Assembly (NCBI RefSeq): GCF_003473485.1
Contig: NC_053042.1
Span: 53,841,762-53,905,761, forward strand
Direction: 5' to 3'
Origin: Medicago truncatula
Lineage: Eukaryota > Streptophyta > Magnoliopsida > Fabales > Fabaceae
Length of the DNA stretch: 64,000 bases
A program made the translations under genes and the position numbers. Positions 11,776 through 63,200 of this stretch are shown here, piece by piece. The notes beneath the pieces are model-generated. The model saw nothing but the letters and a program-made list of their open reading frames with translations, did not search any database and was not told the DNA's origin. Each line of letters opens with the position of its first letter. The first letter of the stretch is position 1.

Positions 11776-12296
11776 GGTGAGGTTTAGCATGGGAAAACTA
11801 CTTTTTTCCCACTATGGGAAAGTTAGTTTATGACCATTAGATCAAACCAAGAATACATCCTTATCATACTCCCTCATTACTAGATTTTCTTCTTTTGTCT
11901 TCAACCTCATAACCATCAACCAAGACGGTTATTATTCCCAAGGCTAAAATATGCTTTTGGTCCCTGCAAATATGGCGAGTTTGAGTTTTGGTCCTTGGTA
12001 TTTTTTTTTTTGAATTGCATCCCTGCAATTTTTATTTTTTTTAAAAAAATAGTCCCTAGATCCAAAAAAAAAATTGCAGGGATGAAATTCAAAATTTTTT
12101 TTTACCAGGGACCAAAAACATATTTTAGCCTTGGGAATAATAACCGTCTTGGTTGATGGTTGTGAGGTTGAAGACAAAAGAAGAAAATCTAGTGATGAAG
12201 GAGTATGATAAGGATGTGTTCTTGATTTGATCTAATGGTCAAAAACTAACTTTCCTATGGTGGAAAAAAAGTAGTTTTCCCATACTAAACCTCACC
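11776..12296. repeat. 521-bp foldback element with long arms
   Basis: The end GGTGAGGTTTAGCATGGG is the reverse complement of the right end TATGGTGG...CTAAACCTCACC. Pairing continues through AACCATCAACCAAGACGG and GGTTATTATTCCCAAGG to the centre near 12040. The left arm runs about 11776-12022 and the right about 12055-12296, interrupted by a roughly 35-bp excess on the left. The inner part (about 11941-12133) starts and ends with GGCTAAAATATG / TATTTTAGCC and GGTCCCTG, a familiar small legume repeat, so this may be one element inside another. Transcribed, it would fold into a long hairpin. Confidence 0.85.
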
Positions 12297-14517: not shown

Positions 14518-15275
14518 TGTTGTGAACTCGAACTCAAAATCACACCAAAACAAACTATGATGTGTGGAGCAAAGGAAAGTAGTAACCAATATCAAAGTAA
14601 ACACAAGAAACAACAATAATAACAACACCTAGATCTAATCTAGTAATCAAAGTGAAAAGTTCAAAACCACAAGCAAAAGATAAAGAGAGAAGAGAAACAA
14701 ACACACCAAAGATTGTTGACCTAGTTCGGTCCAACTTGAGCTAATCTGGGGGAGAGATTGATCTCTCCAATCCACTATCAATGAGTTTTTACAAAGAGAT
14801 ACAAATGGGTTACAAGAAATTAGCTTTGACAAGCTCACAAATAACAACCCTAATTTCTACTAATTTTCCCAATCTCACCAATGAACAAGACACTCAATGA
14901 TTTTCACTCACCCAAGGTGTTTACAATGTTTCCCAACCCAAGAGAACCCCTCAAGAGAACCCTAATCAAAGACCCTCAACCCTAAAGTTACCTCCTTTGA
15001 TTTCCCTAGTTTCTCTCTCTTGAAGCTCTTACCAAAAAATGAAGAATGAAGCCTTAAATAGTGTTCAGGAATACGAAGCATCGTGCCACGTTTCGAGCCC
15101 ATCGTGCCACGATGGAGTTGGTAGCAGTATAGTACTTAATCTTATCTCCTGCATCGTGCCACGATTTTTCCAGTGGCAACCCAAAAAACTGAATCATTCA
15201 ATTATGTCACGTTGCCCTGCAAACGTGCCACGATTTTTCCAAACTTCAACATTAATTTTGAGACACATTTCAACA
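14518..15275 (-). repeat. 3' LTR of the gag-only copia element
   Basis: 758 bp, TGTTG to CAACA, the complete copy. It carries ATCGTGCCACGAT-type palindromes at 15080, 15101, 15153 and 15224. It is highly similar to 16550-17297, with scattered substitutions and a few short indels. Confidence 0.85.
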
Positions 15276-15799
15276 TTTCTCCACCTTGACTCTAAATTGA
15301 TGGTGATGAAACTTTAACCATCAACCACCATTCTCCTTTTCCTTTTCCTTTTCCTTGCATCCAACTACACCAAGTAGCTCCACAAGTCTACACCAAAAAT
15401 CTCTTCAACCACGGAACGTCTCCCGCTTCCTTGAATATCACCTTGCATCCAATAACCCTTGGTCTTTTAGGTAATCACACAAGCCATATCATACATTTTT
15501 CAAACCCCGGAATGCCTTTCGTCCTCATGAAGAATTCACATGCTCACAACTAGAGCATAAACACCCAAGGCCTCCATAGTCGTACCATTTCCGGTGTCAT
15601 CAACTCCACCTCAAGTTGAGTTTTCTCTACCTCAACTTCCAAATGTGTACACACACTATGCCTTCACCTTGCAACTCCACCTCAAAGGTTGATCACGAGT
15701 ATTATTCACACCGCCTCTCCAGGCTATCCTTGAGTATTCTTCCTACCGCCTTTCCAGGCTGATGTTGAGTGTTTAACGTCTCTCTAGACGACCACCGCT

Positions 15800-16566
15800 C
15801 TACAAGGCATCAATACCAAGGTGAGAAACCTCACCTTCTTTATCCTCCCAACAACAAACCACCAATGCACCCGCATCTTCATACTCCTCGGACACAACTT
15901 GCGCGGAGTTCTCATTGTCCTTCGGACAATCCCTCTTGAAGTGACCAAACTTGTGACACTTAAAGCACTTATACCTTTCCTTGTTACCGCTCTTTGAGCT
16001 TCCTCGGTTACCTCTACCTCCACCATTTCCTCTTGAAACACAAAGGCCTTCACTGTTTTCATTTGCTCTCAAGTCATTGGACTTGATCAACTCCTTGGTT
16101 CTCAAAGCCGTTTGAACTTCTTCCAAGGTGACAATGCCTTCTTTTCCATAGAGCATGGTATCCTTGAAGGATTCAAATGATCTCGGTAGAGCACACAACA
16201 AGAGTATAACTTTATCTTCGTCCTCAAGTTGCACCTCAATGTTCTCCAAATCATCAAGGATTTTGTTGAACTCCATTAATTGCTCCATCACGGTCTTTGA
16301 CTCCACCATCTTGAATGAATAGAGTTGTTGCTTAAGGAATTGCCTATGAGCCAAAAACTTGGTCATATACAAGACTCCAACTTTGACCATATCGACGTCG
16401 TGGTTGGTTCCTTCGCGACATCCCTCAAAACTTTGTCACTGAGGCACAAGACAATGGCACTCCTAGCCTTGTCCACCATCTCGGTCTTCTCCGCTTGTGT
16501 CATGGTGACCGGAAATACACCTTCACCCTTCAATGCTTTCTCACACTTTTGTTGTATCAACACCGC
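15800..16566 (-). pseudogene. copia gag pseudogene with zinc knuckle
   Basis: On the minus strand the product begins mid-protein with LIQQKCEKALKGEG and continues through KARSAIVLCLSDKVL to WSKLES. A one-base deletion near 16370-16380 then shifts the frame. The second frame goes on with YMTKFLAHRQFLKQQLYSFK, LCALPRSFESFKDTMLYGKE and a CCHC knuckle CFKCHKFGHFKRDC. This is the Tnt1-type (Ty1-copia) capsid/nucleocapsid. The reading ends shortly after ALVVCCWED, at the place where protease would begin, and no pol follows. The N-terminal region normally before LIQQK is missing. It cannot make a normal Gag. Confidence 0.85.
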
Positions 16567-17297
16567 TTACAAAATCACACCAATACAAACTATGATGTGT
16601 GAAGCAAATGAAAGTAGTAACCAATATCAAAGTGAACACAAACAACAACAATAATAACAACACCTATATCTAATCTAGTAATCAAAGTGAAAAGCTCAAA
16701 ACCACAAGCAAAAGATAAAGAGAGAAGAGAAACAAACACACCAAAGATTGTTGATCCAGTTCGGTCCAACTTGACCTAATCTAGGGGAGAGATTGATCTC
16801 TTCAATCCACTATCAATGAGTACTTACAAAGAGATACAAATGAGTTACAAGAAATTAGCTTTGACAAGCTCACAAAGAACAACCCTAATTTCTACCCATT
16901 TTTCCAATCTCACCAATGAACAAGACACTCAATGATTTTCACTCACCCAAGGTATTTACAATGTTTCCCAACCCAAGATAACCCTAATAAAAAACCCTCA
17001 ACCCTAAAGTTACCTCCTTTGATTTCCCTAGTTTCTCTCTCTTGAAGCTCTTACCAAAAAATGAAGAATGAAGCCTTAAATAGTGTTCAGGAATACGCAG
17101 CATCGTGCCACGTTTTGAGCCCATCGTGCCACGATGGAGGTTGTAGCAGTACAATACTTGATCTTATCTCCTGCATCGTGCCACGATTTTTACAGTGGCA
17201 ACCCAAAAAACTGAACCATTCAATCGTGTCACGTTGCCCTGCAAACGTGCCACGATTTTTCTAAACTTCAACATCAATTTTAAGAGACATTTCAACA
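16550..17297 (-). repeat. 5' LTR of the gag-only copia element
   Basis: 748 bp homologous to 14518-15275. The inner end differs from the other copy over the last ~17 bp, consistent with a deletion that fused this LTR to gag. Palindromes ATCGTGCCACGAT recur at 17122 and 17175. Confidence 0.85.
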
Positions 17298-28710: not shown

Positions 28711-30471
28711 GTGGGGCGCAGCAAGAAGGCAGTTTTCACGTTCCTAAAAGATCGAATTTGGAAAAAATGCCAAGCATGGAGCTCACGGTCTCTCTCAAGA
28801 GCAGGAAAAGAGATTTTTATCAAGTCAGTGGCCCAAACCATTCCATCTTATTGTATGGGAGCCTTCCTCATTCCTACGTCTCTCTGTGATGAGATTGAAA
28901 GAATGATGAACTCATTCTATTGGGGTTCTAAAAAGAACGGTCGTCGTGGTATCAACTAGTTGCGATGGGAAAAGCTTGTTCGACACAACACTCAAGGAGG
29001 TCTAGGCTTCCGGAATCTTGAAGCATTCAACCTTTCTATGCTCGGTAAGCAAAGTTGGAAACTTCTATCCGACTCATCCTCTCTATTCTCAAGGATCCTC
29101 AAAGCTAAATACTTTCCCCGAAGGGATTTTTTGGATGCCAATCTCGGCCACAATCCAAGTTATACATGGAGGAGTCTATGGAGTACGCAATCTTTACTTA
29201 CCTTAGGCCATAGATGGAAGATTGGAAACGGTTCTCAAAATAATGTGTGGAATATGCCTTGGATTTGCAATTCACCAACACTTAAGCCTTCAACCCCGCC
29301 TCTGTTACACTACGAGGATCTTACGGTCAATTATTTGTTGAATCCGGATGGGAACTCTTGGAACATCCCTTTAGTGCAATCGTTGTTCAACCATTCAGAC
29401 GCTGCATCAATTGTCTCTATGCCTTTATTCCCTCGGCTGCATTCTGATCAGCGCATCTGGAAGCTTACCACGGACGGCTCCTACACTGTCAAATCGGCAT
29501 ACTGCATCTGTCTTGACCTTATAGCTGCTGCCACTCCTGTTCAACATGATTCCCGCTGGAATTCTATTTGGAAATTGCAGATCCCACCGCGAGTTCGTGC
29601 CTTTCTTTGGCGCCTTGCCCAACAGTGCCTGCCAACTCGCTCTAATCTTCTTGCCTCCGGTATCCCATGCGATGATACTTGCGTAACGTGTGAGCAATTG
29701 GCTGAATCTCAGATACATGTTTTCTTTATTTGTCCAAAAGCAATCAGCTTCTGGGAGCTGCTCGGGGTCGATCATATCATCCGCGACCTTCTACTTACGG
29801 CTAATAATTGTGCTGCTATGTTTTTTGACTTACTTGACAGGTTACAACCGCAGCAGCAAACTCTAGTTGCAATGACCCTATGGAGCTTGTGGAAAAGCCG
29901 TAATTCCAAACTTTGGGACGCCTCAGATACTACCCCATCGTTTACTGTCACTCGAGCAAAGGACACCCTCAACGAATGGTGTTACATGCAGCGAGCAAAG
30001 GTACCTGTTCACCATGCAATTTCTGCTCACACTTGGATCAAACCTCCTGTAGGCAAGATTAAATGCAACGTAGATGCAGCCGCTTTTAATAACAATTATG
30101 TTATGGGATTTGGTATGTGCTTTCGTGACTTTAAGGGAACTCTTTTGCTTGGAAAATCAGACTTTTACCACTCATCAGCCACAATCTTGGAGGCCGAGTC
30201 TCTAGGCTTACTTGATGCTATTAAAGTGGCTATTTCAAATGGGATGCATGTTGTACTATTTGAAACAGATTCAAAAATTCTGTCTGATGCCATCAACTCT
30301 AATTTTACTCCAAGCAATGAATTTGGTGATCTTGTAATCCAATGTAAAAGTCTCTTACTCGATAGACCCGACTTTGTAGTGCCGTATATTAAGAGGCAAG
30401 CAAATGGTGTTGCCCATAGTATTGCTAGGGCATCACTATCTAATCCTAGCCCCATATTTTTCATCATGTAA
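28711..30471 (+). pseudogene. LINE reverse transcriptase/RNase H fragment
   Basis: One frame runs 586 codons, broken only by TAG at 28957-28959 (after GRRGIN, where a Trp is usual before LRWEKL). It begins with GRSKKAVFTFLKDRIWKKC and IPSYCMGAFLIP, the RT thumb region. The zf-RVT part follows (WKLQIPPRVRAFLWRLAQQC, then CVTCEQLAESQIHVFFICP, with its Cys and His ligands). The RNase H domain has VDAAAFNNNYVMGFGMCFRD, then LEAESLGLLDA, FETDS and a final VPYIKRQANGVAHSIARAS, supplying the acidic catalytic residues. The near-intact frame suggests a fairly recent insertion. It starts mid-protein, so it is not functional by itself. Confidence 0.9.
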
Positions 30472-31144: not shown

Positions 31145-34100
31145 ATGTCAATAATGGATCAATCACCTTTCACGACTCCAAGAGGATCCCTTTCATCAAG
31201 CATTGGTAACGCTGCTGAACTTGAAGCCAATCTCACTCTCAGTGATAAGCTCAGGGTTTTCAAAAGTTCTTCCTTTGATCCCAGTGCCTATGTTGCTTCC
31301 AAATCTCGCAGCATGAACGAGAAGGTATCTGTCTGGGTGCGCCGTGCGCGCGTGTCTTATTTATATAAGTTTTGAATTTTTATTTGAATTGATTTCCATG
31401 TCACAACTTGATAAAAAGGGTCTATTTGTTTATGCTCAGATTAATCAGTTAGGTAAGATCATAAGGACTGCAAAACTCTTCTACGGTCCTTAAAAATGTG
31501 AACGATGTTGTATTTCTAAAGCTGAATTTGAACTCAAAACCTAGTAATGTAAATATGATTACAAGATGAATATCCATGTCTTCTTATGCAGTATTACAAT
31601 ATCCCTACTCTAGAGAATTGAACTAGTTTTGCATGTATTGAAAGTGTAAATATGATTACAATATTCAATTTATACCCATGTCTTCTTATGCCATGTGTTA
31701 GACAATGTTATGGAAAAATTCTACCCTTTTTGCTTTCATTTGATTAATGAAATGATGTTGCTTTGTTTAATCAATATTTGCATTGTTTATAGGAGATAAG
31801 ACATTTGTGTGCTTATCTTGTTGACCTTAAGAAGGCTTCTGCAGAAGAAATGCGCAAAAGTGTTCTTGCTAATTACTCTTCCTTCATTCGGTGAGTACAG
31901 ATCAGACGGACCTCTTGCATGAAGTTGTTTTTAGCGAGTTTGCAACAAGTGCTATTTACATATCTTAGTTGAACAATGTTTGTTGCCACATTTCCAAATT
32001 CTTATGCACCATATATGAAGGGATTTAACCATTGCCATTTTGTGAATTTTGGTCTGTATTTGAACAAAATTATGAATACGAAATTTGGCTTTCTTCTGAG
32101 GTTCACCGTCAAATGTGTTTGAAGTGCCTCAGTTGAGGTTGCACTGGAGTTGAGAGACATTGAAAATCCTGATGTCCCAACCCAAATTGCAGACTTAAGT
32201 CATCCCTATTAAAATCTCTATTTTATATTATTCGAAGTATAAAATCTTAAGTAATGTTCTAATAAGAATGTAGACCTTTATTTAAAACCTCAGTATTTGC
32301 TATTTGAAACAAACTCTCTGCAATATTATGTGCAGTACATCCAAAGAGATTTCAGATCTTGAGGGAGAGCTTCTTTCCATGAGAAACCTTTTATCTAACC
32401 AAGCTGCATTGGTTCATGGTTTAGCAGAAGGGTGTCAACTCGGTTCCTTGGTGACCGGAAACGAAGATTCAGACATGGATGATATAATAAATGAGAAAAC
32501 AGATATATCAAAAACAGAAAAATGGCTAATAGGATATCTTGAAACCCTTAATGTCCTATTGGCTGAGAAAAGAGTGGATGAATCCATGGTAGCTTTAGAG
32601 GAAGGAGAAAAAATGGCTAAAGAAATTAAACAAGGGAAAACTTTAAGTCCGAGTTTATTTCAAGCACTTCAAAATGCCATTACTGAACACAGACAAAAAC
32701 TAGCTGATCAACTAGCAGAAACAATCTGCCAACCATCAACTCGGGGCACGGAGATTCGAACAACGGCATTAGCATTGAAAAATCTCGGGGACGGTCCTCG
32801 TGCTCATACGCTACTACTTAAATCACACAGAAAAAAATTGAAACGTAACATGCAAAGTCTCGAGTCGACAACTTATGGAGGAGTTAGTGCATACACTGCA
32901 TCAATTTCACACCTTGTTTTTTCAACCATTTCACAAGCAGTATCAGATTCTTTGACAATTTTTTCTGGTGAAGAACCTGCATATACTTCTGAGCTAGTAA
33001 CTTGGGCAGTAAGACAAGCCGAAACTTTTTCGCTTCTCCTTAAGAAACAGATTCTCGCCTCAATAGCTGCAACAGGAGGTCTTAGAATTGCATCTGAATG
33101 TGTTCATGTTTGCCTTAGTCACTGTCATCTTTTAGAGGCTAGTGGAATGGCACTTTCACCTGTGTTACTTAAACATTTTAGACCATTTGTTGAGCAAGCA
33201 CTTAACACAAATTTGAAAAGAATTGAACAAAGTAGTGCTGCTTTAGCTGCTGCTGATGATTGGCTGCTTGCTTATGCACCAACCAGTAGGAATACTAATA
33301 CTGGCCTACGCCCGGTTTCTTCTTATTCTAGTTTGAATTCATACCAGCCTAAGCTTTCAATCAGTGCTCACAAATTCAACTCTATGGTTCAGGTGATTAC
33401 TTCTTAACTAAATCAATTTTCATTTTTATCCTCACTTTTTTGCCATGTTTTCACAGTTGTTTGCATATGAAGAAAAACCCACTGCCAAGTAGCCCATGAT
33501 AATAATAAATTAATAATAGATATTACTTTGAAAATTTGTCAAGTATAACATATGTATTATGTACCACCGTCACTTCAAATTGAAAGCTTGTTCGATGTCT
33601 GACAGGATACCAACACATGTAGTTACATTAAATCACTTCTATTTTGTAAAATTATTGCAGGTGTTTACATGTTAGTGTTCAGTGTTGTATCTTTGTCAAT
33701 GCTTCATAGAATATAACACCGACCAATCCTTATTCTAGGTGGGATGGTACATGCTGTATGAGTCAAATGACGCTATAAATTCCTCTCTCTCTCTCTCGTA
33801 TATGAGGTCTGTTAGAATCGAAGAATCAAATCTTTCTTTTTATATTATTAGGATTAGAATCATATATTAGGGTCTGAATTAGAAAATCATATAAACTAGC
33901 AATATTAAGCCTGAGTGTGGTATGACTTGGACAGAGAATCACAAATTCAACTAGATTGAAAGTGAGGCACAGCCAACAAAGAATAAAATCCTTAATCACT
34001 TCCCTTTCCATTTTTATGTAATGCCTTTCTTCCTTTTGTGTGAATATATAGGAGCTTTTTGAAGACGTAGGGACACTTGAAATCCTACAATTGGATGGCC

Positions 34101-41470: not shown

Positions 41471-41938
41471 AGTTCCCACAATATTTCGATACACAAAAGA
41501 GAACGTTCTCGATGAAGAAAGAAAAAGATGTCACTTGTCACATTGTGGTTGACCAATGTCACATGAAATTGAAACCACAATGTCATCCAAATGACATCCT
41601 TTCTTCACTACCTTTTAACAATGTTTTTCGATCATCTTTAAAGACTTTAGAAAAATCTTTTCACTTAACTCTTTCACCTTGTTACTTGCACCTTCTCTAC
41701 ATCACTACACCCCTCTTTTACAATGTTTGTATTCATCAAACCTAAAATAAAAGAAGTAATAGTTATTTTGGTCCCTGAACATATAAGGAGTAGTCGTTGG
41801 ACAACAAGGAAGGAGTAAGAAAAGAGAGTGAGCAGTAGTTAGCTAGCAACTCTCCCTCGTCCTCTCCGCCCCTCTCACCTGTCCCTCCTTCTTCATATCT
41901 CTTCTCATTTCTCATTCATTAATTCTCATTGCTCCAAA

Positions 41939-44900
41939 ATGAATACACATTCTCTCTCTTCTTCGATGATCTCAATGTCTTCTTCATCTTCTATTCGCAC
42001 CCCTCAATTCACCACTCTCCTCCTCCCCCACCGCTCCTCCCCTCGCCGCAAATCCTTTTCCTTCAAAATCCAAGCTAAGATCCGTGAAATCTTCATGCCT
42101 GCACTCAGTTCCACTATGACCGAGGGTAAAATCGTCTCCTGGATCAAATCCGAAGGCGACACTCTCTCCAAAGGTGACAGTGTCGTTGTTGTTGAATCTG
42201 ATAAAGCTGACATGGACGTTGAAACTTTCTACGACGGAATTCTCGCTGCTATCGTTGTCGACGAGGGAGAAACCGCTCCCGTTGGTGCTCCTATTGGTTT
42301 ACTCGCTGAAACTGCTGAAGATATTGCTGAAGCTCAAGCCCAGGCTAAATCCGTCAAATCCGCTTCTTCTTCCTCTTCCTCTCCTCCTCAGGAAACTTCG
42401 CAGTCTCCTCCTCCACCACCTCCACCTGCGGCGGTTAAGTCTGTTTCCGATGGTCCCAAGAAAATCACAGCGACACCTCAAGCGAAGAAGCTTGCGAAGC
42501 AGCATAAGGTGGACATTGCTTCTGTAAACGGGACTGGTCCGTTTGGTAGGATTACTCCTGCGGATGTAGAGGCTGCTGCTGGGATTACACCGGTGAAGAG
42601 TAATGTAGCTCCGGTGGCAACCCCTACTCCGGTTGCACCGAAAGGTGGTTCTTCTGCTGCTGCACCAGCTGCGATTCCGGGTTCGAGTAATGTTGCTTTC
42701 ACAACTATGCAATCTGCTGTTGCTAAGAATATGATGGAGAGTTTATCGGTTCCTACTTTCCGTGTTGGGTATCCAGTTATCACTGATGCACTTGATGCTT
42801 TCTATGAGAAGGTATAAATGTGCATTTTCTAATTTGAAATATGATGATATATGATAATGACATTGTTTATTTATTTATTTATTTTGGTGATGGATTGTTT
42901 AGACTGAATAGTATTATTGTATTGGAGTTTTGAAATTTGAAAATGATTATATATGATTATGACCTTTGTAACCGCAACACTTCTAATCTGAGGTGTGTCC
43001 GTGTCCGACACCGACACATGTGATTACATTCAATTATGTCATTTTTTTTAAATTACCTCAGGTGTTGATGTGTGTGTCCGGTGTCCATGTCTGTGCCAAT
43101 GCTTTATAGACGATGACTTTGTTTGATTTGAAAATTTAGGTGATCGATGGATGGTTGAGATTGAATATTATTGTTGTATCGGAGTTTTGAAATTTGATGT
43201 TGAATTTTTCTGTTCAGGTGAAACCTAAGGGCGTGACTATGACTGCTATTTTGGCTAAGGCTGTTGCAATGGCACTTGTTCAGCATCCAGTTGTCAATGC
43301 CACCTGCAAAGATGGCAAGAACTTTCATTACAACAGTAACATTAACGTTGCAGTTGCTGTGGCAATCAATGGTGGCTTGATAACCCCAGTTCTTCAAAAT
43401 GCTGATAAGGTCTGTGAACTTAAGTTTATTTTATGTTTTTTTTTTTTAATTTCATTTGTTGATTGTTTTGTTGTTGTGTTGTAGTTGGACTTGTATCTGC
43501 TGTCTCAAAAGTGGAAAGAACTAGTTGGAAAGGCTCGTTCAAAGCAATTGCAACCGAATGAGTATAATTCAGGTTTGTTTATTGTTGTCGTTGGCTATCT
43601 GGTTTCTGTGTTACTAGAATGTTTTAACCGGATATTAATTCTGCCTGTTTGCCTGCAGGAACTTTCACGCTTTCCAATTTGGGTATGTTTGGAGTTGACA
43701 GATTTGATGCCATACTTCCACCAGGCCAGGTTAGTGCTTATTTCTAATATTTTGAGTTGTTAGTTTGAGAGATTATCTGGCTTATTTTCTAGCAATTTGG
43801 ACCTTTTTTTGGGAGGTGTTAAACTTGTCATTTATTTCAGGGGGCTATCATGGCTGTTGGAGCATCAAAGCCCACTGTTCTTGCTGATGCAGATGGATTC
43901 TTCAGAGTGAAAAGTAAAATGCTGGTGAGTTATATAGTAGTATATATACTTTCCTTGCTGTTTATGCCTTCATGCTTGCTTAGTACAGTAGATGAATCCC
44001 CAAGTGAGAACATAAATGAACATTTTTTAATAGAAATAAGGCCTTCTGTCATTGCCCTGCGGCCATCATATGAGGCAGAACCTTAGATTGCATTTGCATC
44101 GTGTCACATTAGCAATATAATTTTCTGAAATGTTAACTGTAGGGTCATAGCCTGAATTTTAAATTATATCTGGGCAGTGTTGAGCCACATGAGTACATTT
44201 TTCTCAAGGGTTAATAAATTGCATAAATTTTTTATCACATCTGCAAGGTGCTGTGTGATAAATATTTGGCAAGTGTACCAAAAACTATTGAAGTAATAAT
44301 AAAATTTGTATCCACGAGGACCGTTGTTAATCTCAACTTAGCAATAAAGTTAATATCTAGGATGTGTAAATTTTTTAAGTGTCTGAGGCAATAGGTTTGT
44401 GTGCATAAAAAATAAATAACAGAAAATAAAATGGTTTGATAATTGGATTAAAACAGATGATCAAGCCTTTCAAATCCTCTATTGCTCACTGTGAGTAATT
44501 TGCCTCTCTTCTCTCTCAAAGAAATTAACCTAGCTTTACGACGGATTAACTAAATGGTTTTGATCAATCTCTTGACTCAAAACCCTTTCCTAAGTTATAA
44601 CCTTTTAATCTCTTAAACCGATTGAATAACCGTGGAAGCATGGTGAGAACGTTAATTCATAAGTCATACTCAATTTTCTATCTATCTCTAGGTTCCTATG
44701 TTGAATTAAACAGAATAACTATTTCAAGATTAAAAGCTAGAGTTAGTAGTCATTCAATTCCTAAGATCAATCATAAGAAAAGCATTGAGCACAAATAATT
44801 CTGTATAAAGACTAGGTTTTCATTGATGTCAAAGGGAGTTCTTAACAAATTACATGCTCACTGATCACAAAGATTCATCTCATGGCTTAATCAATCTAAG

Positions 44901-47527
44901 AGTTTAGTTACTCATAACTAAACAATTAAATACATAGAAATAATAGAACATACATAAATCAGAACCAACTATGAGCTGGGTGAGATCCACCGCGTGTTCT
45001 TTAGCTTCCTGGTGTCGTCTATGCTCTGTTTAGGTCTCCAAAATCGCTCTTTAAGCTTCTGATCGCATCTGACTTTAATAGACAAAGAATTAGGGTTTCA
45101 AAAAAGCCCACCATCGTGCCACATTTCGAGACCATCGTGGCACGATTTGCTCATTAATCCTACGTGGTAGCAAATTTACTCAACCATCGTGGCACGTTAC
45201 ACATCCATCGTGCCACGATTTTTCCAGCATCTTCAGGTAAATTCCACGCTTCAAACGTGCCACGATTCAGGTCCATCGTGGCACGATTTCTCCAGTAGCT
45301 AAATTCTTGCATTCTTCTCCAATTTGTGCAAAACTTCTCTTTTATGAATCTTGAGATGATTTAATCATGTATACAAGCAATTGACTCTCTAAATGCCATA
45401 AAAATATCATAAAAAAACCATAAAAATAACATAATGACGACTGTCATCACTGTGCTTCAGGAATGTTCAGGAATATGACCTCTAGTATTTTTCTGCAGAG
45501 TTAATTTTCTGGCCCTGTTTCAAATATTCACCATAATGCTTTTTTCTAATCTTCTTAAAATTCATAAGTGCGGCCTATGAATTTTCTATTTCTTGAATTT
45601 CTGATTCCTTCTCTTCTTACCTGATGAACCGAAGTTTTCAACGTTCAGAAGGCTTCTTTTGTATCTGGACTGGGTGATACATTCTTCCTCTATTGTATAA
45701 CAAAATATTATCTAGTCTTTTTACTTTTCATCTTGTATTCTTTATAGAGATAGGTTTCGCAGGAACCTTATTTGGATAGTTTGATTGATTCCTAGTGGCT
45801 AAGGTGCATCTTAATATACCACATAGGCTCATTTTGTGGTTTAACATCTTTCTTCTGCTAAGTTCCTTGACACGGTAAACGATTGGACTTGTTTCTTGTC
45901 AACAATGAAATTTCAACATCCTATATAACCACAGTTTTCTCTAGTGTTTTGTTTTGTTTTTTCCTTTTGAAGAATCTATACACTTGATTCTCTGCAAACA
46001 AATTCTAAGAGTCTGTTGGGGGTGTACGTCTAGAAACCATAAAATGGGAATGTCTGCAAATCATCATTTCAAATGCAATATTATTACTTTTATAGTCACA
46101 ATGGGTATGCCCTTTGATTAGAGATCTTAGAGCAACAAAAATCTAGTTTGCTAGATTTCAACTGTTTCATTTTTGAAGCATTTTGTCCCGTATCTTTTGA
46201 TCTTGTTTGTTGAAATACTTACTGGACATATCCACTAAACGGTATCGTAGCACATGTTATTTTGTAAACAATTGAAAAGTTAGTGACATGTCATAAAGCC
46301 TTTGAGACAATTCGACCTAAGCCATAGTAAAGAAATAGTATTTGGAATGCAAAACAAATTTTATCAGAGAGGTGAACATTTAATACAAGTCTCTCGATTT
46401 AAAATACCGTAGATCTATCATACAAAGGAACATAGAGATAGAGGAGGATATCAATCACAATCAAAATAGGATGGGTGAAATTGAGTGTATGTAAATGCCG
46501 TCTGTATATGCTTTTACTCTATTTACAAAATTATAAGTAATTTGATACTCAAATATACATATATTTTGGCATTTGGTAAATTGGTCTTTGTAGCCGAAAT
46601 TGAACAAAATATTATCCTCAATAGAGGTTTATTTGCTACGTGTGAGATTTTATACCTCGTTAAAGTGCATTATTGGAGTTGTGTGCAACAATAAATAAGG
46701 ATCATATATGCAATAGAAAATACCACTCAAGCATAAAGAATAAAATCCATTGCATAGTTATAAGATTTTCAATGTTGTGTATGCAACTGAATGTTTGGTG
46801 GTAAAAAGCTAACAAGTAAACTTAGTGTTGCCTAGATGAGAATATTAAGATGCATGATTGGTTAAACAAGGCGAAATAGGATTAGAAATACTATATTTAG
46901 AGAAAAAATTAGGCCAGCCTCCATTGTAGAGAAGACAATAGGGTCATTTAGGACATTCATTGTTGCTTTTTTTTCAAAATAGGATGAAAAAGGTCAGGTA
47001 GCCTAGTGGCTAGAATTGACCTTTTTCAAGGTGAATAAGTGGGGTGTCCGGGGTTCGAACCCCGGCCCCTGCATATAACAATGCATGTCCCTACCAACTG
47101 AGTTAATATTTGTATATTTGTGCAGTTTCACTACCGTGTTCAAATTTTATAAATTAATGACCTCACATGCATGATGCCTCACTCTAAACTCTAAAGTATA
47201 AGGGTAGAAAACATTTTTCTTGTCTTTATCTTGTATGCATCATATCATGAAATCATAATAGATGTATTTGGCTTTGGTTAATGTGGTCATAAAAAGCACC
47301 ATGTCAAATACTGGTTCAGATAGTTCTCTTCTGCCAGTTTTCGATAAGAATCATATGAAATCATAGGTTTTTATTTTTATTTCCCAGGGTCAAATTAATT
47401 GGGTCTAAACTTTCCTTTTCAGGTGAATGTAACAGCTGATCACCGAATAATTTATGGAGCTGACTTGGCTGCCTTCCTTCAGACATTCTCTAAAATCATT
47501 GAAAACCCAGAAAGCCTAACATTATAG
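41939..47527 (+). CDS. LTA2: Plastid pyruvate dehydrogenase E2 (dihydrolipoamide acetyltransferase)
   Basis: Six exons (41939-42811, 43218-43409, 43485-43572, 43659-43729, 43841-43924, 47423-47527) give 470 residues. Residues 1-46 are Ser/Arg-rich and acid-poor, a chloroplast transit peptide. The lipoyl domain follows (IFMPALSSTMTEGKIVSW) with lipoyl-lysine K89 in ESDKADMDVE. A Ser/Pro hinge at 138-170 leads to the E1/E3-binding domain at about 175-213 (ATPQAKKLAKQHKVD, GRITPADV). The acetyltransferase domain from about 250 has FTLSNLGMFGVDRFDAILPP and the active-site DHRIIYG with His443. The enzyme passes acetyl groups from E1-bound hydroxyethyl-thiamine to CoA, making plastid acetyl-CoA for fatty-acid synthesis. 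Phases agree and the frame is open. The last intron is 3.5 kb and contains a solo LTR and a tRNA-like repeat. Intron 1 has a dispersed repeat and a local duplication. Confidence 0.95.
42965..43115. repeat. Intronic dispersed repeat, copy 5 (LTA2 intron 1)
   Basis: GAGGTGTGTCCGTGTCCGAC, ACCGACACATGTGATTACAT, GTGTGTCCGGTGTCCATGTC and CAATGCTTTATAG. The clearest copy. It is flanked by two versions of GGAGTTTTGAAATTTGA (about 42923 and 43181), a local duplication. Confidence 0.65.
44256..45449. mobile_element. Solo LTR in the last LTA2 intron
   Basis: A 1194-bp segment starts TGATAAATATTTGGC and ends ACTGTCATCA (TGAT...ATCA), with a 5-bp duplication CTGTG at 44251-44255 and 45450-45454. There are no internal coding domains, so only one LTR remains, as after recombination between the two LTRs. 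A block at 45113-45287 has six ATCGTGSCACGAT-type palindromes. The superfamily is not determined. Confidence 0.85.
46992..47105 (+). repeat. tRNA-like dispersed repeat
   Basis: It begins GGTCAGGTAGCCTAGTGGC (A-box-like) and contains CCGGGGTTCGAACCCCGG, an 18-bp perfect palindrome at 47048-47065 that includes the B-box core GGTTCGAACC. It ends CCCTACCAACTGAGTTAA, whose complement TTAACTCAGTTGGTAGGG is a second A-box-like sequence. So both strands have a Pol III-type promoter layout. It is not a tRNA gene, because no cloverleaf can be drawn. It looks like a SINE or tRNA-derived miniature element, and I recall it as abundant in Medicago. Confidence 0.7.
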
Positions 47528-50799: not shown

Positions 50800-53651
50800 T
50801 CATTTACTAAAGAAAATTCTATTCACAACTTCCACGGGTAAAGCGTAAGCTGGGTCTATCGGTTTCACTCCAGGATATTCAAGAAGTGAAAGTCCTGCAA
50901 CAACAAATAAAACAACTTCATATGAAACACATAAATAAAATTAACAGAGATACATTACTAAGTTAAATCATGTTATATGTCAAATTGAATTTGGGACTTG
51001 ATATATGTTGTATGACCAGCATTTATAAGGGGTAAAAGCATAAAGAATGCAGAGTGGGATAGGCAGGGAAGCTATAATATGCAATAATGAAGTGTAGAAC
51101 AACATTAATTTTCTGTTAAAAAAAAAAAAAAAAAGAACAACATTAAGTTCATAACTAACATATGTACTCGCTTTAAACCAAGTAAGAAACAACAATATAT
51201 CAAGAAACATTTCTAACGACAAATCATTCCCGATCAACACTTTTTATCAGTGCTTCTACAAGTCTACTCCACAGAAGGCCAAACCACATAAGACGAAACT
51301 CTACCACCCAACTTTCTCGCTAACATTTATATTTCTAATCCTATCTTGTTTTATGTGACTACACGTACAGCTTAGCATTGTCATTTTAGCAACAGTGTGA
51401 TTACTTTCTCATTAGCTCTAAAGCCCAACATTCAATATCATGTAACTGCAGATTTTAAAGTCGTGTGGTAAAATTTTCTTTTAAACTTCAATGTTACTTT
51501 TCTATCACAGATTACACTAGAAACATTTCTCCATTCCCACCACCATGATATCCACATTTTAACCAGTTTGGATAAACTTTTCAAAAAGCATTTACGGGAA
51601 AATAAGATTGAAATTATACAACAATAATGATTATGAGTATATAACTAATAACTTTTTGCATAAATTGAAATGAGCTTTCCACATTTCGACAATTTCAGAA
51701 ACTTATTTATGTTATAACTCCACGACAGCCTATAAATGCATTAGGGCTTGTTCTATAGATACGAACCAAACACATCTCTCTATTAAGAAGCTCATACAGC
51801 ACTTAAACTTAAACTGTGTAAATTGTAATGTGGTATGTTCTCCAATTTTCCACGTTAAGCTAAAATTTCAGTGCCTTTTGCTAAAGTTGTATTCCATATT
51901 ATACCCTTTCTACTACAAACTTTCCAAACAACTAAAATAAAAATAGAATGACATGTATCTAGTTCTAAATTCTAATGTATAATTATGTAAGCTTGTTGAA
52001 CTAATATGATTTTTCAAGTGATTTTACTTAATAGTTTAACCTTTTGACATAGTTCATCCCATTGTAGTCAGGATCGAGTGCTGGTTCGTAGGATCGTATG
52101 ATCCTACGTTCCACAGCACCTCAATCGTGCTTCGACTTTACTCAGGTTCATTTTTTCTTTGTTTGCTCTTGTTTTTCTTCTGTTTCCTCTGCTTTCTCTG
52201 TTTTTTTGTTTGTTTCCTCTGTTTTTCCTCTACTTTCTCTGTTTTTTTGCTTGGTTCCTCTGTTTTTCCTCTATTTTCTCTGTTTTTTCACTCAACTCTA
52301 TCAACAACCTACTGATCTTACTTACGAAGCGTGTTACGACCCTCATGTTTACAATCTTTCACCAGCCTACCGATCCTACTTAAAAACTCGAACCTGACTA
52401 CATTCTATGCATTTTCCACGCTTTAGCACAAGCATAGGCTTATAAGATGATCGATTTTATGACATGAACCAAAACATGAAGTGGGCAACAAAAAGTCACT
52501 AGGTTTCTTGAAGATGCCTTTTTGCGTATCTTTCGAAATTACATGACCAAACAAAGTAGAAAATACAAAAAAAAGGAAAACATTACCAGCCACCCCAAAG
52601 TATGTATGGAAGACATCCACAGCATCATCTGGTCTATCTGAAATCCCACCATTGTCTGTGTCCTAACAGTTTCAACGTACACAATATTTCAGAAATACTA
52701 ACCTCATAAGTCATAACAGTTAACACCACAAAAGAAGGAGGAAAAAACATGCTGATTTGTTTACACAAATTCCACTAAATAACCTGACAGTCCAAGATAA
52801 ATTTTATAAGCTTCTCCTTACTGATCCAATGAACCCTGTCAATCATGATCAGGCTAGAAAGAACCCACCATGAGTAGCATACCTGACAAGATCTAAAGCT
52901 GGTAAGAGAAACTGAACAAAACAATAATAGCATCTATAGCAATAGACCTAAACTTGAAAAGATTTACTCACATCAGGGAGTTTCTCTGGACGCCCATTCA
53001 GACCTCCAGATTTAACTTGTCGCTCACATAACCACCATCCAAGTAGGTCCTTGTCAACAAGATCTAGTGACCCCGCTATAGCAAGGGCCCCCACACAACA
53101 GAAAACTGAAAATAGAAAAAGCAATATCTCACAAGGATTATTCAAGTCTACAGCTCATTGCATTCTTTTATTTGGAATTCAAAAGATGGAAAAACCAAAG
53201 CAGACATATTGACACACTAAGAATGCATTCGCCGACTAAAATTTGTTTTATTATATGCATTCCTTGAGTGAACAGTCAACACAACACAACATAAGTAGAA
53301 TACCAAATTATGGGATTTGGCCTCCTAAAGAGGTTATCTTAATTCTAAAGCACATATTGTAACCTCTTAGCATTCAAAGGTTTAGAGAGATGCTCACAGT
53401 ATTATTAATTTGGGAAATTTATTCAATATAAGTAAAATGGAGACTTTTAAATATGATATTTGCTTCCGGTATGCCCTAATCCCACTGCTTAAACCAGGAG
53501 AAAGGTTCCCTCTTCTAGTGAAAACATTATTTTTACTCCTTTTAGTGGCTGCATCAGAGTAGAAAGCAAATTCTTGTGTCCATAATTTAAACAACAAATT
53601 CAAACTATGGCCTAATGACACACAACATTCCTTTCGTGTGGGAAAAACGGG

Positions 53652-53691
<40 letters not shown>

Positions 53692-54550
53692 TCTTGAAAA
53701 GGAATAGATGAACATGCATTGAGTAACATAGAGAAAGTAATATATAACATACTTTGTCCAGCATGAGATTCCCCACCAGGTGTGCAACCAAAACCACCAT
53801 CCATGTTTTGGCAACTTATAATGTATTTGACAGCCTTGTCCACATTTATTCTATCCAAGCGATGTAATAACGATAGACAACAAATAGCAATGTATGAGAA
53901 CCTAAGACAAACAAGTCAGTAGATTTTAGTCCAAAAAAAGTGCAGTAAGCTCATAGGCAATCAACAATCAAAACCGGAGTTAAGCAAAATAGCATACCGG
54001 GTATCAACTTCACCCCATATATCCCCTGAAAAAGACCCATCTTCATTTTGCAGGCCGACAATATCTAACATAAATATTAAGCCACACAAGATCCAGTATA
54101 TTTATTAACAGATGAATACATATCACAGAACCTTTAAAGGATACAATTTGTGACCTTATCTGCATCAATAACATCCAACTTATTAAAGAGAGCAAGCACC
54201 TGCACGGCACTAAGTGTATACAAGATATGTGGGTCATGTCCAACATTTCCACCAAAACCCCCTTCATCGTGCTGACAAGACATGATCCAGGAAACAACCT
54301 CATGAACATCTACGGTGTCGAGCTTCCCCAGAAGATGAAGGGTAGTCAATCCCCAGTATGCTCCATTCATCCTGAGATGCTCCATTACAACAGATTCAAA
54401 ACTATCTTTCTTCTGAAAATAAAAAATGTTAAAAATTATGATACTGAAGATGATATATTGTTTTGAAAATAATTAAGGAATGAGAAGCAGACAGACCTTT
54501 TGAACAGATAGTATATACTGAACGTGTTTCTCAGCAACCAGGTCTCCCAT
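50800..54550 (-). CDS. RGTB: Rab geranylgeranyltransferase beta subunit
   Basis: Eight minus-strand exons (54497-54550, 54145-54412, 53998-54064, 53753-53901, 52972-53105, 52784-52882, 52587-52662, 50800-50894) give 313 residues starting [18 protein letters not shown]. Prenyltransferase repeats are evident: [96 protein letters not shown]. Zinc ligands by family position are Asp224 and Cys226 (LPD-VCYSWW) and His276 (VFHTYFG). The exon 5/6 junction falls between Asp224 and Val225. With an alpha subunit and the Rab escort protein it adds geranylgeranyl groups to Rab C-termini, anchoring them to membranes. All phases agree. Intron 7 is 1.7 kb and intron 4 holds a 48-A run (plus strand). It is convergent with the HMA gene. 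Confidence 0.95.
52088..52107. repeat. Perfect 8-bp-arm palindrome in RGTB intron 7
   Basis: GTAGGATC-GTAT-GATCCTAC. Downstream at about 52323-52375 the related words TACTGATC and CCTACCGATCCTAC recur, so it may mark the edge of a dispersed repeat covering about 52070-52400. Confidence 0.6.
52141..52300. repeat. Pyrimidine-rich tandem repeat
   Basis: TTCCTCTG begins units at 52184, 52214 and 52255 with CTTTCTCTGTTTTTTTG-like filler, a 30-41 bp irregular period. It lies within RGTB intron 7. Confidence 0.75.
53652..53699. repeat. 48-bp poly-A run in RGTB intron 4
   Basis: An unbroken A homopolymer on the plus strand, which is poly-T in the transcript sense. It may be a retroposon tail remnant, but no element body was recognised beside it. 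Its exact length may be affected by sequencing. Confidence 0.9.
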
Positions 54551-56590: not shown

Positions 56591-58714
56591 TGTAACGCCC
56601 GTTTCGAATTATTTAATTATTTAATTAATTATAGAAGTTATTAAGATGAGTTTATATTATATTTATATAATATATGTGTGATTTATATGATTTATATGAT
56701 GGACGTGATTTTATGTGATTTATGAGTAGTTGTGACTTATTTTTTTGTTTAATAAAATAAGATTTGAAAATAAAATAAATATTGAGTTTAGGGATTGTTT
56801 TGAGATTTTAAAGAGTTTTAGGGGAGAAAGAGAAATAAGATAAGATAGTGGAGGATATATAAATAGGGAAACCTAGTTTAGAGAAAAACATTTGTACGTA
56901 CGATCGTTTTTGGAGAAAAGGGAGAAAAAACCAAGAGAAGGAAGAAGACCTAGAGGGGCTGCGATTTTCATCCTATAAGGTAAGGGTGAGACTAACTTTG
57001 CAATTCTATTAAGTCTGTGATTTAATGGTTAGGTTTAACATGATGTAGGATGAATTAAAAGGAATCGGAAACTAGGTCAAAACTATAGAATTGATGATTA
57101 AACGGAGAAAAGTTGTTAGATTGATGTAGAAATTGTCCCTAGACCTTAGATAATGATTATGATGAATTCTGGAATCAATGTTAGGCTTAAAACCATGAGA
57201 ACTAGCGATTTTTATGAAAAACTGCACTTCCGCCCGTAGCGACATTCATCGCTCGCCTCCCGAGCCATGATCCTCGCCACAGCGAGGGATGAAGTTCATC
57301 GCTCGCCTCGCGAGCAACCTTTCCCCGCCTCGCGAGTTGCACTTCGCAGCTCGCCATAGCGAGCAGATGAACTCGCCTAGCGAGCTTGACCAGAGAGCAT
57401 GCAAGATTTTGTGATTTTGACTTTTGAGTTGATCTTATATGCCTTTGAGTGCCTGAACATGTCTAATAATGATTAGGAAAGAATGTAGAATGAGATTGAA
57501 CCTGGAAAGATTTAGAATGAAACTTTTGGAATTCTGACCTGAACTCGCCACGGCGAGCAGAGGCTCTCGCCTCGCGAGTGACCCAGAAACAGAGTGCCTT
57601 GTTAGGATTTTGCGACCTTTGTTGCACGAGTTGTTGAGAGTTGAACCTTTGGGTAGTATTGAGACTTAATGATGATGTTAATTATAATCTGTGAAGCTGT
57701 TTAAGATGTGTTGATGTTGATTATGATGTGATATAATGTTAAACGCATTACTTGAATTATGAATGTATACTTGAGATGTTGTTGACTTGCATTTGATATT
57801 ATTATGTCATGTTGTTTTTGTATACTGCCTATGTTGCTGTTGTTATTTAACTAAGCTGCATGAGTCGGTCTAAGTTGATGAAGATGATGATGATGTTTCC
57901 AAATTATTGGATTATATAAGAGGTTGTCGAATTAAGATGTTTAAGAGGTCGAGTCCATGCATTAGCATTTCATTGTTGGGGGCTTGATGCCCTGGAGCTT
58001 TGTACTCAACACGATGGAGCTTTAGCTCAAATAGCGATGGGGGTTTGATGCCCTCGAAAGTATATTAATACTCAAATAGCGATGGGGGTTTGATGCCCTG
58101 GATTGGTACCACATGCATATAAGAGGTATAAGTTGCATAGTCACATTGTCGAGTCAAAGATGATAAGTTGCCAAGATGTTGAGCTGTGTTCTATTTATGA
58201 ACTATTTATGAAGTGATATATTATTATCCAAGATGTTATTATGATGTTTCCAAGTTGTTAAATATAATTGTTGAATTATATGTTTAATATTCTTGTTTTG
58301 TGAAATCTCACCCATTCTGCTTGGAAATGTTGCTTTTCGTATGAGTAACTTGCAGGTGATCAAGAGTAGGTTGTTGGTGTTGCTATCGTGAGTGATTTAT
58401 TCCTCATTGAGTCTTAGGTTGCTCTGATACGTAATGGGAGGGGATCTTTAGTGGCTATTTCTTTTTCCTTTGCGTATATGCTATGATTATGTTGCTTAAC
58501 TGAACTTATAAGATGGTTTTTTATGAGGCCTGCGTGCCAAGACTTATTTATGTTGAAGAATTTAATCCGTTGCGAAGTTTGAAAATAATTATGCTGAAAG
58601 ATAATTTGTTAATTATCTGTTTTATGATTTTAAGAAGTGTGATATTCCGTTTATGTTGTGTTTTACTTTGATAATATGTTTGAAATTTTTAAGTTGGGAA
58701 AACGGGGTGTTACA
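56591..58714 (+). mobile_element. Solo LTR, 2.1 kb
   Basis: It starts TGTAACGCCCGTTTCG and ends AAAACGGGGTGTTACA, with an exact 5-bp duplication CCGAG at 56586-56590 and 58715-58719. TATATAAATAGGG near 56855 is a likely TATA box, which suggests plus orientation. No gag or pol is present, so it is a solo LTR. At 57260-57580 it carries seven or more short palindromes such as GCTCGCCTCGCGAGC. The long LTR suggests a Ty3-gypsy type, but this is not proven. Confidence 0.88.
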
Positions 58715-60296: not shown

Positions 60297-63200
60297 ATGC
60301 CCACCGATTCTCGACGCAAGCATCGCCGATCACCTTCTCCCGATGACCACGACAAATCCTCCAAACGTCACAAACACCGCCACCGTCACCGCCACCACAT
60401 CAGCAAAAAACGCGGCGAAGAAGAGATTCAATTCGATGCTGAAACCGTTGATTCGGTGAAGATCAATCATCTTCCTGTTGATGACGTAGAGGAGGGAGAG
60501 ATTCTTGATGACCTGCCTTTCGAGGTCAAAGATGATCCAGATCTTCGATCTAATGACAAAAATCCGGTATGATACGATCCAATTGAATTGGTTTATGTAT
60601 TTATTAGTATTATTTTTTGTTTAATTTCAATTTTCCGCAATGCTACATGTGATTTCTGTTTTGGTTGCTGAGAAAGAACGAAGAGGACGGGAAATAGAAT
60701 TCAATAAACCATAGTCGCTAAACAATTACTCAATTTTCTATCTAATCCCTAAACTATGTAAATATAATAAATTCTCCATAAACAATACAAAATTCGTCAA
60801 TTTAGTATCTGAAGTGTATACAAATTTGTCAAATTTCTTCTTCAATTATTTGTCAACTTAGTCCCTGGCATTTCATCTTAATAGCAGAGACTAAATTGGC
60901 GGGTTTTATATATTTTAGAAACTATTTATTATATTTACAATTTTCAGGGATTAAATTGAAGTTTGAGCAATAGTTTATGGACTAAATTGGTGTTTTACTC
61001 GTCATAGAGTTCATCAAATTCAAAGAAGTTTTTGCTCTTCTACTTGTTTTTTTTTTTTTTTTTTTTTGCTGTAAATTTTTTATTTATGTCACAGAATTAA
61101 GTGTTTCAGTCTATCTCACCTCTTCTCAGTGACCAAACAGAACACAGTGATTCCTTTTTTCTGGATTGTATAATGATTTTTTTATTCGTGAGAGCTTGTT
61201 GTTAGAGTACCCTGTCAGTGTTTCATAGATATGTAAGAACCTGGTTGCACTACACAAACATGACATGAAAGAAATCTCTCTAGGCGTTTCAGTGAAGACT
61301 GGGGGCTTACAGTTAATTTGTAAGAGCTGGTTTTGTGTTTTGTAAATTTATTTTTGCATATATTATGGATTGATTTAAATGCATTGTTTATTTTGTTTAT
61401 TTTATTCAGCTCTAACTTGAGTATTGTTATCTTTAACATCTGCACTTAATTAATTCTTTATGGTGGGCAGGGACTTCCCGCTAAAAATTCAGAAACTGAA
61501 CATGAGGACATCAGCAATGACAGATTTATTAATCATACTTCTGATGAAGAAGATGGGAAACTGCGTCAGAGCTGCCACATTGATACTCGAATTAATGACG
61601 ATGATGATTCTCCATACAACTCAAGAGCTGAAACTCAAACTAGGAGGGATGTTCGAGCTGGTACTGATGCTCTGGGCAATGGGCATCTGGGTGTTAAGTC
61701 TTCCAAAGGGGATAAGTGGAAGAATTGGGAGTTTGGTCATTTTAGAGGAAATGAGAAACTTAAAGGTGACAATGATGACGACACACTGGAGGCTAATAGA
61801 AGGGAAGTAAATCCCCACAGGAATTCCTCTGAAAGTGGAGAAGAAAAACACAGAATGTCAGCGAATTCTCCTTTGCATGATGGACACAGAAGTCGATCAA
61901 GATCAATTGGTCATACAAGGGATAGGTCTCGTTCTCGTAGTGTAGTAGAAGAGCATGCTCGTCCCAAGAACAGGCACTCTGTGGAACAAGGATCCCTTTA
62001 TTATACCAGTAGACACAAGACTGACTATGACCTTGATGAGGAAACAGTGAGAGCAGGAAGAAGGGAGCATCGTCACGGCAGTAAGGATCTGATGGAAGAT
62101 GATAGACGAGAACACAGTTCTAGGTATCATAGTCGGGAGGCCCGGGATAAGAACAGGAACAAGGATATGGATAAGGATAGGGGTCGGGACAGAGATGTGG
62201 ATAGAGACTTGCATAGGGAAAAGAAGCGAGAGGAAACAAGCAGGAATAAGGAGGTTGATTGGGTGCATAGAAGGGAAAAAGAACGTGGAAGGAGTCATGA
62301 CAGGCATAGAAGGGACATGGTAAAAGATAGGAGCAGGGAAAGGGATGAGGGTAGGGATAGGAGAAGAGAAATGGAAAGAGATAGGAGCAGGGACGCAGTT
62401 TATGAGAGGGATAGTAGAAGGGAAACTGAAAGAGATATGAGCAGGGACAGAACAAGGGGTGGTGAGAGAGATAGAGACTGGAAGAGTGAATGGGATTATA
62501 GGAACCGGGAAAGGGATATCAATAAGGAGAGACGAGATGACAGATATCGGCACAACGATGAAGACACTCCTAATGGTAAGGATAAGCATATGCATCGCGA
62601 GGATGATAATGACATCGGAGATAGATATAAAAAACATTCAAGACATGAAGAAAATGGATACCATGCAGATAGAAAGAGAAACTATACCATGGAAGAGGAT
62701 GGAAGGAAACTTAAAGGGTAAATTTCATTTTTACTATAAAACTTTGTTCTGGAATATCATACTTGTTTTGTTTTGATTCTGATGTATATTGATTGCAGCA
62801 GCGAGGTTGAACAAGATGATGTAGATGAGGATACATTGGAATTACCTGATCAGGAAGAGGAAGATCTGATCAGAATCAAAGAGGAGAGTAGAAGAAGAAG
62901 AGAAGCAATAATGGAGAAATACAAGAAGCAGAGTCAGCAAATACAGCAAGCAGCTGAAAATGAAGGAAAAGGTATTTTCTTCTGCTTTTTTTTATAGGTC
63001 TGAGTGAGGCAGATAGTATTAGTTACAGTACTTCTGATCATAATTTATATTTCATTAATTTCTGCATTTATCATAAGTATTGTCTTGATTTTCACATTGG
63101 CTTTTAGACTATGATTTCATATTTCAGACCATGTATCAGTTTACATGAAGGTGCATATGTGGCTTATAATATTTTTTGACCCCATAGGTTACCCGTAAAA

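Follow-up and report, generated by a model that had tools for sequence, protein, structure and literature searches.

Paired palindrome arrays in dissimilar retrotransposon long terminal repeats of Medicago truncatula

How do long terminal repeats (LTRs) of retrotransposons that are unalike elsewhere come to hold the same palindrome, repeated in the same order and at the same distances? The question is raised by a 64,000-nucleotide (nt) window of Medicago truncatula DNA (NC_053042.1 of assembly GCF_003473485.1; the window is the whole stretch analysed, and all coordinates refer to it), in which one copia element and two solo LTRs, together the whole plant sample, carry arrays of short palindromes. 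Array A, whose unit is a 13-base-pair (bp) dyad with the core CGTGSCACG, occurs in both LTRs of a gag-only Ty1/copia element and in solo LTR A, and array B, made of CTCGC-N3/4-GCGAG dyads, occurs in solo LTR B. We propose, with a probability of about 0.5, that array A is a cis-regulatory cassette of paired dimer-binding sites in the U3 region of two dissimilar LTRs and that array B is an independent array. Because the sample consists of one copia element and two solo LTRs, the placing of the array-bearing elements in different superfamilies is presumptive.

Recurrence of two palindromes

The whole window was scanned for ATCGTGSCACGAT with up to two mismatches, and 100 shuffles served as the control. 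All 15 matches fell inside the two copia LTRs and solo LTR A (four in 14518–15275, five in 16550–17297 and six in 44256–45449), against 0.33 expected and a shuffle maximum of three, which bears out the ATCGTG palindromes that a preliminary description of this DNA had assigned to these LTRs. A more degenerate copy at 15201 aligns with the 17223 site of the partner LTR. Core pairs 21 bp apart, again at up to two mismatches, number six in the window, all of them in array A, and are absent from the 100 shuffles. A scan of both strands for CTCGCCNNGCGAG with at most one mismatch gave eight matches, representing five distinct sites, all in array B, where 0.02 matches were expected. The preliminary description had counted at least seven CTCGC-nnn-GCGAG palindromes at 57260–57580; there are eight, at 57252–57578. 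The features are as follows.

14518..15275, minus strand: 3′ LTR of the gag-only Ty1/copia element, one of an LTR pair, with array A near its 5′ (U3) end
16550..17297, minus strand: 5′ LTR of the same element, partner of the preceding LTR
15080..15234, minus strand: array A of the copia 3′ LTR, dyads at 15080, 15101, 15153, 15201 (degenerate) and 15222; spacings 21, 52, 48, 21
17102..17256, minus strand: array A of the copia 5′ LTR, dyads at 17102, 17123, 17175, 17223 and 17244; spacings 21, 52, 48, 21
15053..15060, minus strand: TATA-like TATTTAAG of the copia 3′ LTR, 19 nt downstream of the array (gap by coordinates)
17075..17082, minus strand: TATA-like TATTTAAG of the copia 5′ LTR, 19 nt downstream of the array
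44256..45449, probably minus strand: solo LTR A, target-site duplication CTGTG; no homology to the copia LTR outside the array
45113..45287, minus strand: array A of the solo LTR, dyads at 45113, 45134, 45186, 45207, 45254 and 45275; spacings 21, 52, 21, 47, 21; three pairs
45073..45080, minus strand: weak TATA-like TATTAAAG of solo LTR A, 32 nt downstream of the array
56591..58714, probably plus strand, judged from its most TATA-like box: solo LTR B, target-site duplication CCGAG
56856..56865, plus strand: probable TATA box TATATAAATA of LTR B, upstream of array B
57252..57578, plus strand: array B, CTCGC-N3/4-GCGAG dyads at 57252, 57273, 57302, 57324, 57350, 57372, 57544 and 57566; spacings 21, 29, 22, 26, 22, 172, 22; four pairs

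Counted without regard to sequence (arm of at least 5, loop of at most 4, at least three G/C per arm; 500 shuffles per LTR), palindromes number 3 in 14518–15275 (0.49 expected; 4 of 500 shuffles had as many), 2 in 16550–17297 (0.38; 32 of 500), 4 in 44256–45449 (0.65; 4 of 500) and 7 in 56591–58714 (1.11; 0 of 500). One of the three in 14518–15275, one of the four in solo A and one of the seven in LTR B lie outside the arrays, and another of the seven in LTR B, at 57560, overlaps an array site and is not one of the eight dyads. For the array stretches alone the count was reached by 13, 18, 1 and 0 of 500 shuffles, in the same order of LTRs. The claim that palindromes exceed their shuffled expectation thus stands for solo LTRs A and B and is weak for the copia LTRs; the real signal is the recurrence, at set distances, of a single palindrome. 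When the window was scanned for near-palindromes of 12–16 bp that have two or more similar copies no further than 300 bp away in either direction, these arrays and three other places were picked out, namely 12-bp near-palindromes at 10504 and 21858 and GGGCTTGATGCCC at 57980. The last of these is a 13-bp near-palindrome that recurs in similar form 61 and 106 bp beyond it, a second repeated motif of LTR B (57980–58100).

The dyads are far better conserved than the bases next to them. Within an array, dyad identity is 89% (copia 5′ LTR) and 86% (solo A), whereas mean identity is 28% and 48% for the 8 nt to the left and 20% and 30% for the 8 nt to the right; since the dyads are conserved and the adjoining 8 nt are not, array A does not look like a recent tandem duplication. 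Similarly, conservation is 79% over the first 7 nt of nine listed B sites and 27% over the 8 nt immediately left of them. This retention of dyads among differing neighbours fits the selection on palindromes that had been suggested. Eleven A sites were compared, those of the copia 5′ LTR and solo A, the five of the copia 3′ LTR being excluded as duplicates. The core CGTG-S-CACG is intact in nine of them, the G and C flanking the centre are fixed in all 11, and ten have C or G at the centre itself; in six of the 11 the second pair, counted from the outer end, is broken one-sidedly, and in no case is the break compensated. The fixed central bases are those that would form the loop of an RNA hairpin. 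Six of the eight B sites have perfect 5-bp arms around 3–4 nt and the other two have one broken pair each, in both cases one-sided. The centre is thus constant in length in A and variable in B.

CpG dinucleotides are likewise concentrated in the arrays. In each copia LTR 10 of 13 CpGs lie inside the array, and the observed/expected ratio is 1.13–1.19 in the copia arrays against 0.16–0.18 in the rest of these LTRs and 1.46 against 0.50 in solo A; the contrast is smaller in LTR B (1.13 against 0.78).

The element that carries two of the A arrays is assigned to Ty1/copia by its gag, a minus-strand open reading frame matching Pfam Retrotran_gag_2 (PF14223, E 4.8e-18, above the curated cut-off). 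This reading frame, of 211 codons and with a zinc knuckle as well as the copia gag, is the single long one between the LTRs (15276–16549), for which reason the element looks non-autonomous. Its LTRs are about 93% alike across their aligned part; the end at 14518–14534 has no match in the partner LTR and inspection of the ends of the element revealed no clear target-site duplication, so that the limit at 14518 is uncertain. With gaps and everything before 14535 excluded, the two LTRs differ at two of the 65 positions inside sites and at 37 of the 663 outside them, differences too few to decide on selection after insertion.

Both solo LTRs are bounded by the exact 5-bp target-site duplications listed above, which indicates that their limits are right. 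The minus strand is suggested for solo A by the direction of the module, the same as in copia, by the TATA-like word downstream and by an LTR end that is presumably Tat/Athila-like; that strand has four TATA-like words. A scan of viral contigs for the expected gypsy junction gave no matches. The plus strand of LTR B, an LTR that we take to look Tekay-like, is a judgement call, since its minus strand also has TATA-like words (six matches), of which the one closest to the array on its upstream side is at LTR position 797. Should plus be the sense strand, array B lies about 390–710 bp downstream of TATATAAATA at 56856 and is probably in the transcribed leader. LTR B is not convincingly similar to the other LTRs (best E 0.34 for the 3′ copia LTR and 0.020 for solo A).

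A common spacing series and a common pair distance

The spacing series of array A, 21, 52, 48, 21 in copia and 21, 52, 21, 47, 21 in solo A, agree within 1 bp if one 21-bp unit was gained or lost. The ordered module ATCGTGCCACRTTTCGAG, ATCGTGSCACGAT, ATTTTTCCAG is present in both families, as had been described, in slightly altered form in the 5′ copia LTR. Outside the array the two LTRs are unrelated. With the dyads masked, the copia 5′ LTR aligned to solo LTR A on the same strand with a best local score of 30.0, against a mean of 30.9 for 300 shuffles, 179 of which did as well; on the opposite strand 64 of 300 did as well, and the flanks outside the array showed no similarity above that of shuffles (108 and 263 of 300 as good). 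Homology of the two ATCGTG-bearing LTRs over their whole length is accordingly rejected, the masked alignment and flanks both being at chance level.

The spacers between corresponding dyads agree in part. Spacer 1 of solo A is identical at seven of eight positions to that of one copia LTR (12 of 5000 shuffles as good) and at six of eight to that of the other (39 of 5000), and spacer 3, which starts with the TTTTCCAG flank, is identical at 15 of 34 (95 of 5000). Spacer 2 has the same length of 39 nt in both and an identity of 12 of 39, which is chance, as is the two of eight in spacer 4. Because the masked LTRs are no more alike than shuffles and yet share the spacing series, descent or transfer of a 155–175 bp module is likely; one module would have been inherited, its sites and distances held while the spacers drifted. 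The view that a module had been shared or exchanged is therefore the better reading, the sharing being in register.

In all three arrays most sites are paired 21–22 bp apart, a regularity that goes beyond the preliminary description. Each copia array consists of two pairs and one single site. Random placement of sites kept at least 14 apart served as the control; the copia and solo A arrays are not independent of each other in this test. The two of four copia spacings at 21–22 bp were reached in 556 of 40,000 placements, the three of five in solo A in 64 of 40,000, and the four of seven in the eight-site array B in 5 of 100,000, the last figure being aided by the single 172-bp gap; the first six B sites alone (three of five) gave 718 of 100,000. 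A degenerate ninth B copy may exist at about 57230, and it was because of its poor alignment that the test was repeated with eight sites; with nine, five of eight spacings fall at 21–22 bp (0 of 40,000), and four of six among the first seven sites (42 of 40,000). A distance of 21–22 bp is two turns of B-form DNA (10.5 bp per turn). Of the longer distances, 52 bp is about five turns, but 47–48 bp, at about four and a half, is out of phase.

The three arrays had been credited with the same architecture. The 21–22 bp pairing and the CpG surplus are indeed common to all, but the TATA position and the length of the centre differ; the likeness is only partial because a TATA-like word closely follows array A, whereas array B, with the plus strand assumed, probably lies downstream of its most TATA-like box.

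Protein sites, hairpins and passive repeats

Each 13-bp dyad of array A would most likely be recognised by a DNA-binding protein of the host that acts as a dimer. At 10.5 bp per turn, sites 21 bp apart are separated by two helical turns, so that both dimers of a pair would lie on the same face of the DNA, and paired sites just upstream of a TATA-like word may drive or gate transcription of the LTR. The copia and solo A arrays would have arisen from one module through recombination, template switching between elements or a common third source, the sites and distances being kept and all likeness being lost in two or more of the four spacers that can be compared. Protein binding is favoured for array A because of its fixed centre, its one-sided arm changes, its two-turn pairing and the TATA-like word close downstream. 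For array B, which would be independent, with the same pairing and probably in a transcribed leader, a hairpin is about as likely as protein binding, since its centre is free in sequence and length and its position is that of a leader. A broader proposal, in which promoter cassettes of dyads paired two helical turns apart are transferable between LTR superfamilies and families lacking such a cassette have independently evolved the same pair geometry because a common class of dimeric host factors reads it, is put forward tentatively.

Several points weigh against the cassette interpretation of array A. The 21–22 bp interval was picked post hoc, after inspection of the data, the 47–48 bp between pairs is half a turn out of phase, and one copia site in five has no partner. 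The TATA-like words close to array A are weak ones, of a kind frequent in AT-rich DNA. A literature search for a binding motif in arabidopsis matched no transcription factor to the dyad core. The masked alignment has low power for short common flanks, the solo A family is known from a single copy and the copia family from a single element, and stable predicted RNA folds are equally expected if the arrays are hairpins.

This last possibility, that the arrays act as RNA, their transcripts forming hairpins that Dicer-like enzymes cut into small RNAs and that serve the host as recognition or silencing sites, seems to us rather doubtful. The predicted folds are more stable than those of shuffles (z = -6.01 for solo A, -4.59 for the copia 5′ LTR, -5.22 and -2.91 for two stretches of array B), and for each of the four stretches all 200 shuffles folded less well; however, any palindrome array folds well, and fold stability is for that reason not independent support. 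Array B, with its free loop of 3–4 nt and its probable place in a transcribed leader, suits a hairpin, and 21–22 nt is the size of some plant small RNAs, which also counts for an RNA function. In maize, according to the available text of two reports, small RNAs are in excess at the palindrome clusters of Sirevirus LTRs (PMC10760457, PMC5311732). Against this stand the changes in the arms: in array A the second outer pair is broken on one side without compensation, while the would-be loop bases are fixed, and both broken pairs in array B are one-sided. Silencing would, moreover, be a cost to the element and give it no reason to retain the array.

Convergence, in which the two ATCGTG arrays arose separately and the same host factor imposed both the site and the pair distance, is unlikely. 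It would account for the recurrence of 21–22 bp pairing in the sequence-unrelated array B and for the two of four comparable spacers that are unrelated. It does not readily explain why the longer distances (52 and 47/48), the TTTTCCAG flank and the first spacer occur in the same order in both arrays, since a common function need not by itself demand this.

More improbable still are functionless repeats, either selfish and multiplying or born of slippage, like the short hairpin repeats that spread in hosts. Such repeats could place the same palindrome in two dissimilar LTRs and would fit the 21-bp unit apparently gained or lost between the A arrays, and one maize palindrome is common in both copia elements and Helitrons, as far as the available text of that report goes (PMC10760457). 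Yet the dyads and their distances match where the intervening bases do not, CpGs cluster in the arrays and are rare in the remainder of the copia LTRs, and none of the 15 ATCGTG matches in the 64 kb lies outside LTRs. Chance or composition, that is, AT-rich LTRs with ordinary palindromes, fits the slightly raised generic counts of the copia LTRs (for one LTR, the 32 of 500 shuffles given above) but is practically negligible and was rejected for the specific motif, the recurrence of ATCGTGSCACGAT and its 21-bp pairs being unmatched in 100 shuffles.

If the paired-site cassette is real, LTR promoters would evolve by cassette swapping. The fixed sites and distances would offer a direct handle on the host factor used by retrotransposons and a clean test of promoter against small-RNA function.

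The LTRs sit among ordinary genes, as shown by gene pieces for an exocyst EXO84 C-terminal domain (32286–33404), a biotin/lipoyl and E3-binding protein of the dihydrolipoamide acyltransferase type (41843–42814) and a prenyltransferase-toroid protein (53397–53915). The window also contains an open reading frame with zf-RVT and RNase-H-like RVT_3 domains (28960–30468), probably the remnant of a non-LTR retrotransposon, and two inverted repeats, one at 11776–12296 with 191-nt arms that are 94% complementary and 139 nt apart, of foldback or MITE-type appearance, and one at 60712–60984 with 100-nt arms that are 76% complementary and 73 nt apart.

Relation to known palindrome systems

Neither array was found reported in the literature searched. 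Vernhettes is said to have described, in 1998, repeated and partly symmetric activator boxes in the U3 region of Tnt1-type copia elements, upstream of the LTR promoter. Those boxes are known within related copia elements, whereas array A is shared with a dissimilar LTR; we know of no in-register sharing of that kind for Tnt1-type boxes. The available text of one Sirevirus study names box I of Tnt1 (PMC2829016), and the 1998 work of Vernhettes is cited in PMC10760457. The sole literature match to the palindrome sequences, a paper on potato virus X (PMC6425663), is taken as a chance match. Among viral contigs CATCGTGSCACGATTTTTC and a pair of B sites gave no matches, and ATCGTGSCACGATTTTTCCA gave none among genome contigs; these collections are viral and prokaryotic and say little about plants. 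The 21-bp core pair was found in six viral contigs, all of 61–69% GC and with the core at most four times, and was judged, on these two properties alone, to be there by chance or to be bacterial or phage sequence.

In maize, the Sirevirus LTR palindrome CACCGGACNNNGTCCGGTG forms clusters with strong predicted folds in the regulatory region of the LTR (Bousios 2016, as given in the accessible portions of PMC10760457 and PMC5311732). It is also the commonest motif of the structured regions of Helitrons (PMC10760457, available text), so that the sharing of a palindrome across element classes has a precedent. The arrays here differ from the maize palindromes in sequence and in their conserved pair spacing, the accessible portions of those reports stating none. 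The small-RNA evidence belongs to the maize palindromes; the present arrays are known from their sequence.

The closest comparison is with the repeated motif (RM) of Sireviruses. In the available text of its description (PMC2829016, Bousios et al. 2010), the RM is palindromic and CpG-rich, lies in multiple copies in the upper half of the LTR upstream of the TATA box, has a CGG-CCG core in 12 of 13 elements (Tnd-1 is the exception) and numbers at least eight copies per element. Arrays A and B resemble it in that one palindrome is repeated in the upper half of an LTR and in that the sequence varies by family while the arrangement recurs; they may also do so in CpG richness and, for array A, in the TATA-like word downstream. 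They differ in their cores, CGTG-S-CACG in A and CTCGC-N-GCGAG in B, neither of which is of the CGG-CCG type. Copy numbers are five per copia LTR, six in solo A and eight in solo B, against the RM figure of at least eight, the internal regions of the solo LTRs being missing and the copia element being gag-only. As for the CpG patch near the TATA box, all arrays have a CpG surplus; TATA-like words follow array A at 19 or 32 nt, and array B lies downstream of its box.

Two further marks distinguish the copia element from Sireviruses. Their polypurine tract, as described in the accessible text, consists of multiple copies of the octamer AGGGGGAG followed by AT/TG (PMC2829016), whereas the polypurine-type pattern of the copia element has one match, AGGTGGAG followed by AAA/TG. 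A change from G3 to T in the polypurine is one of the two commonest in classic elements (PMC2829016, same text), and missing polypurine copies are by themselves weak evidence because the element is internally deleted. The Sirevirus 5′ junction is CA/ATTGG followed by TATCAGAGC (PMC2829016, available text); that of the copia element reads ...CA/AAAGTGTGAG, at an LTR end that is poorly matched and whose limit is uncertain. The same text describes the RM as confined to Sireviruses and missing from classic copia elements (PMC2829016). Unlike the RM, array A occurs in a copia element without Sirevirus junctions and also, in register, in a second, non-homologous LTR; on the reading preferred here it would be related in kind to the RM yet lie outside the Sireviruses.

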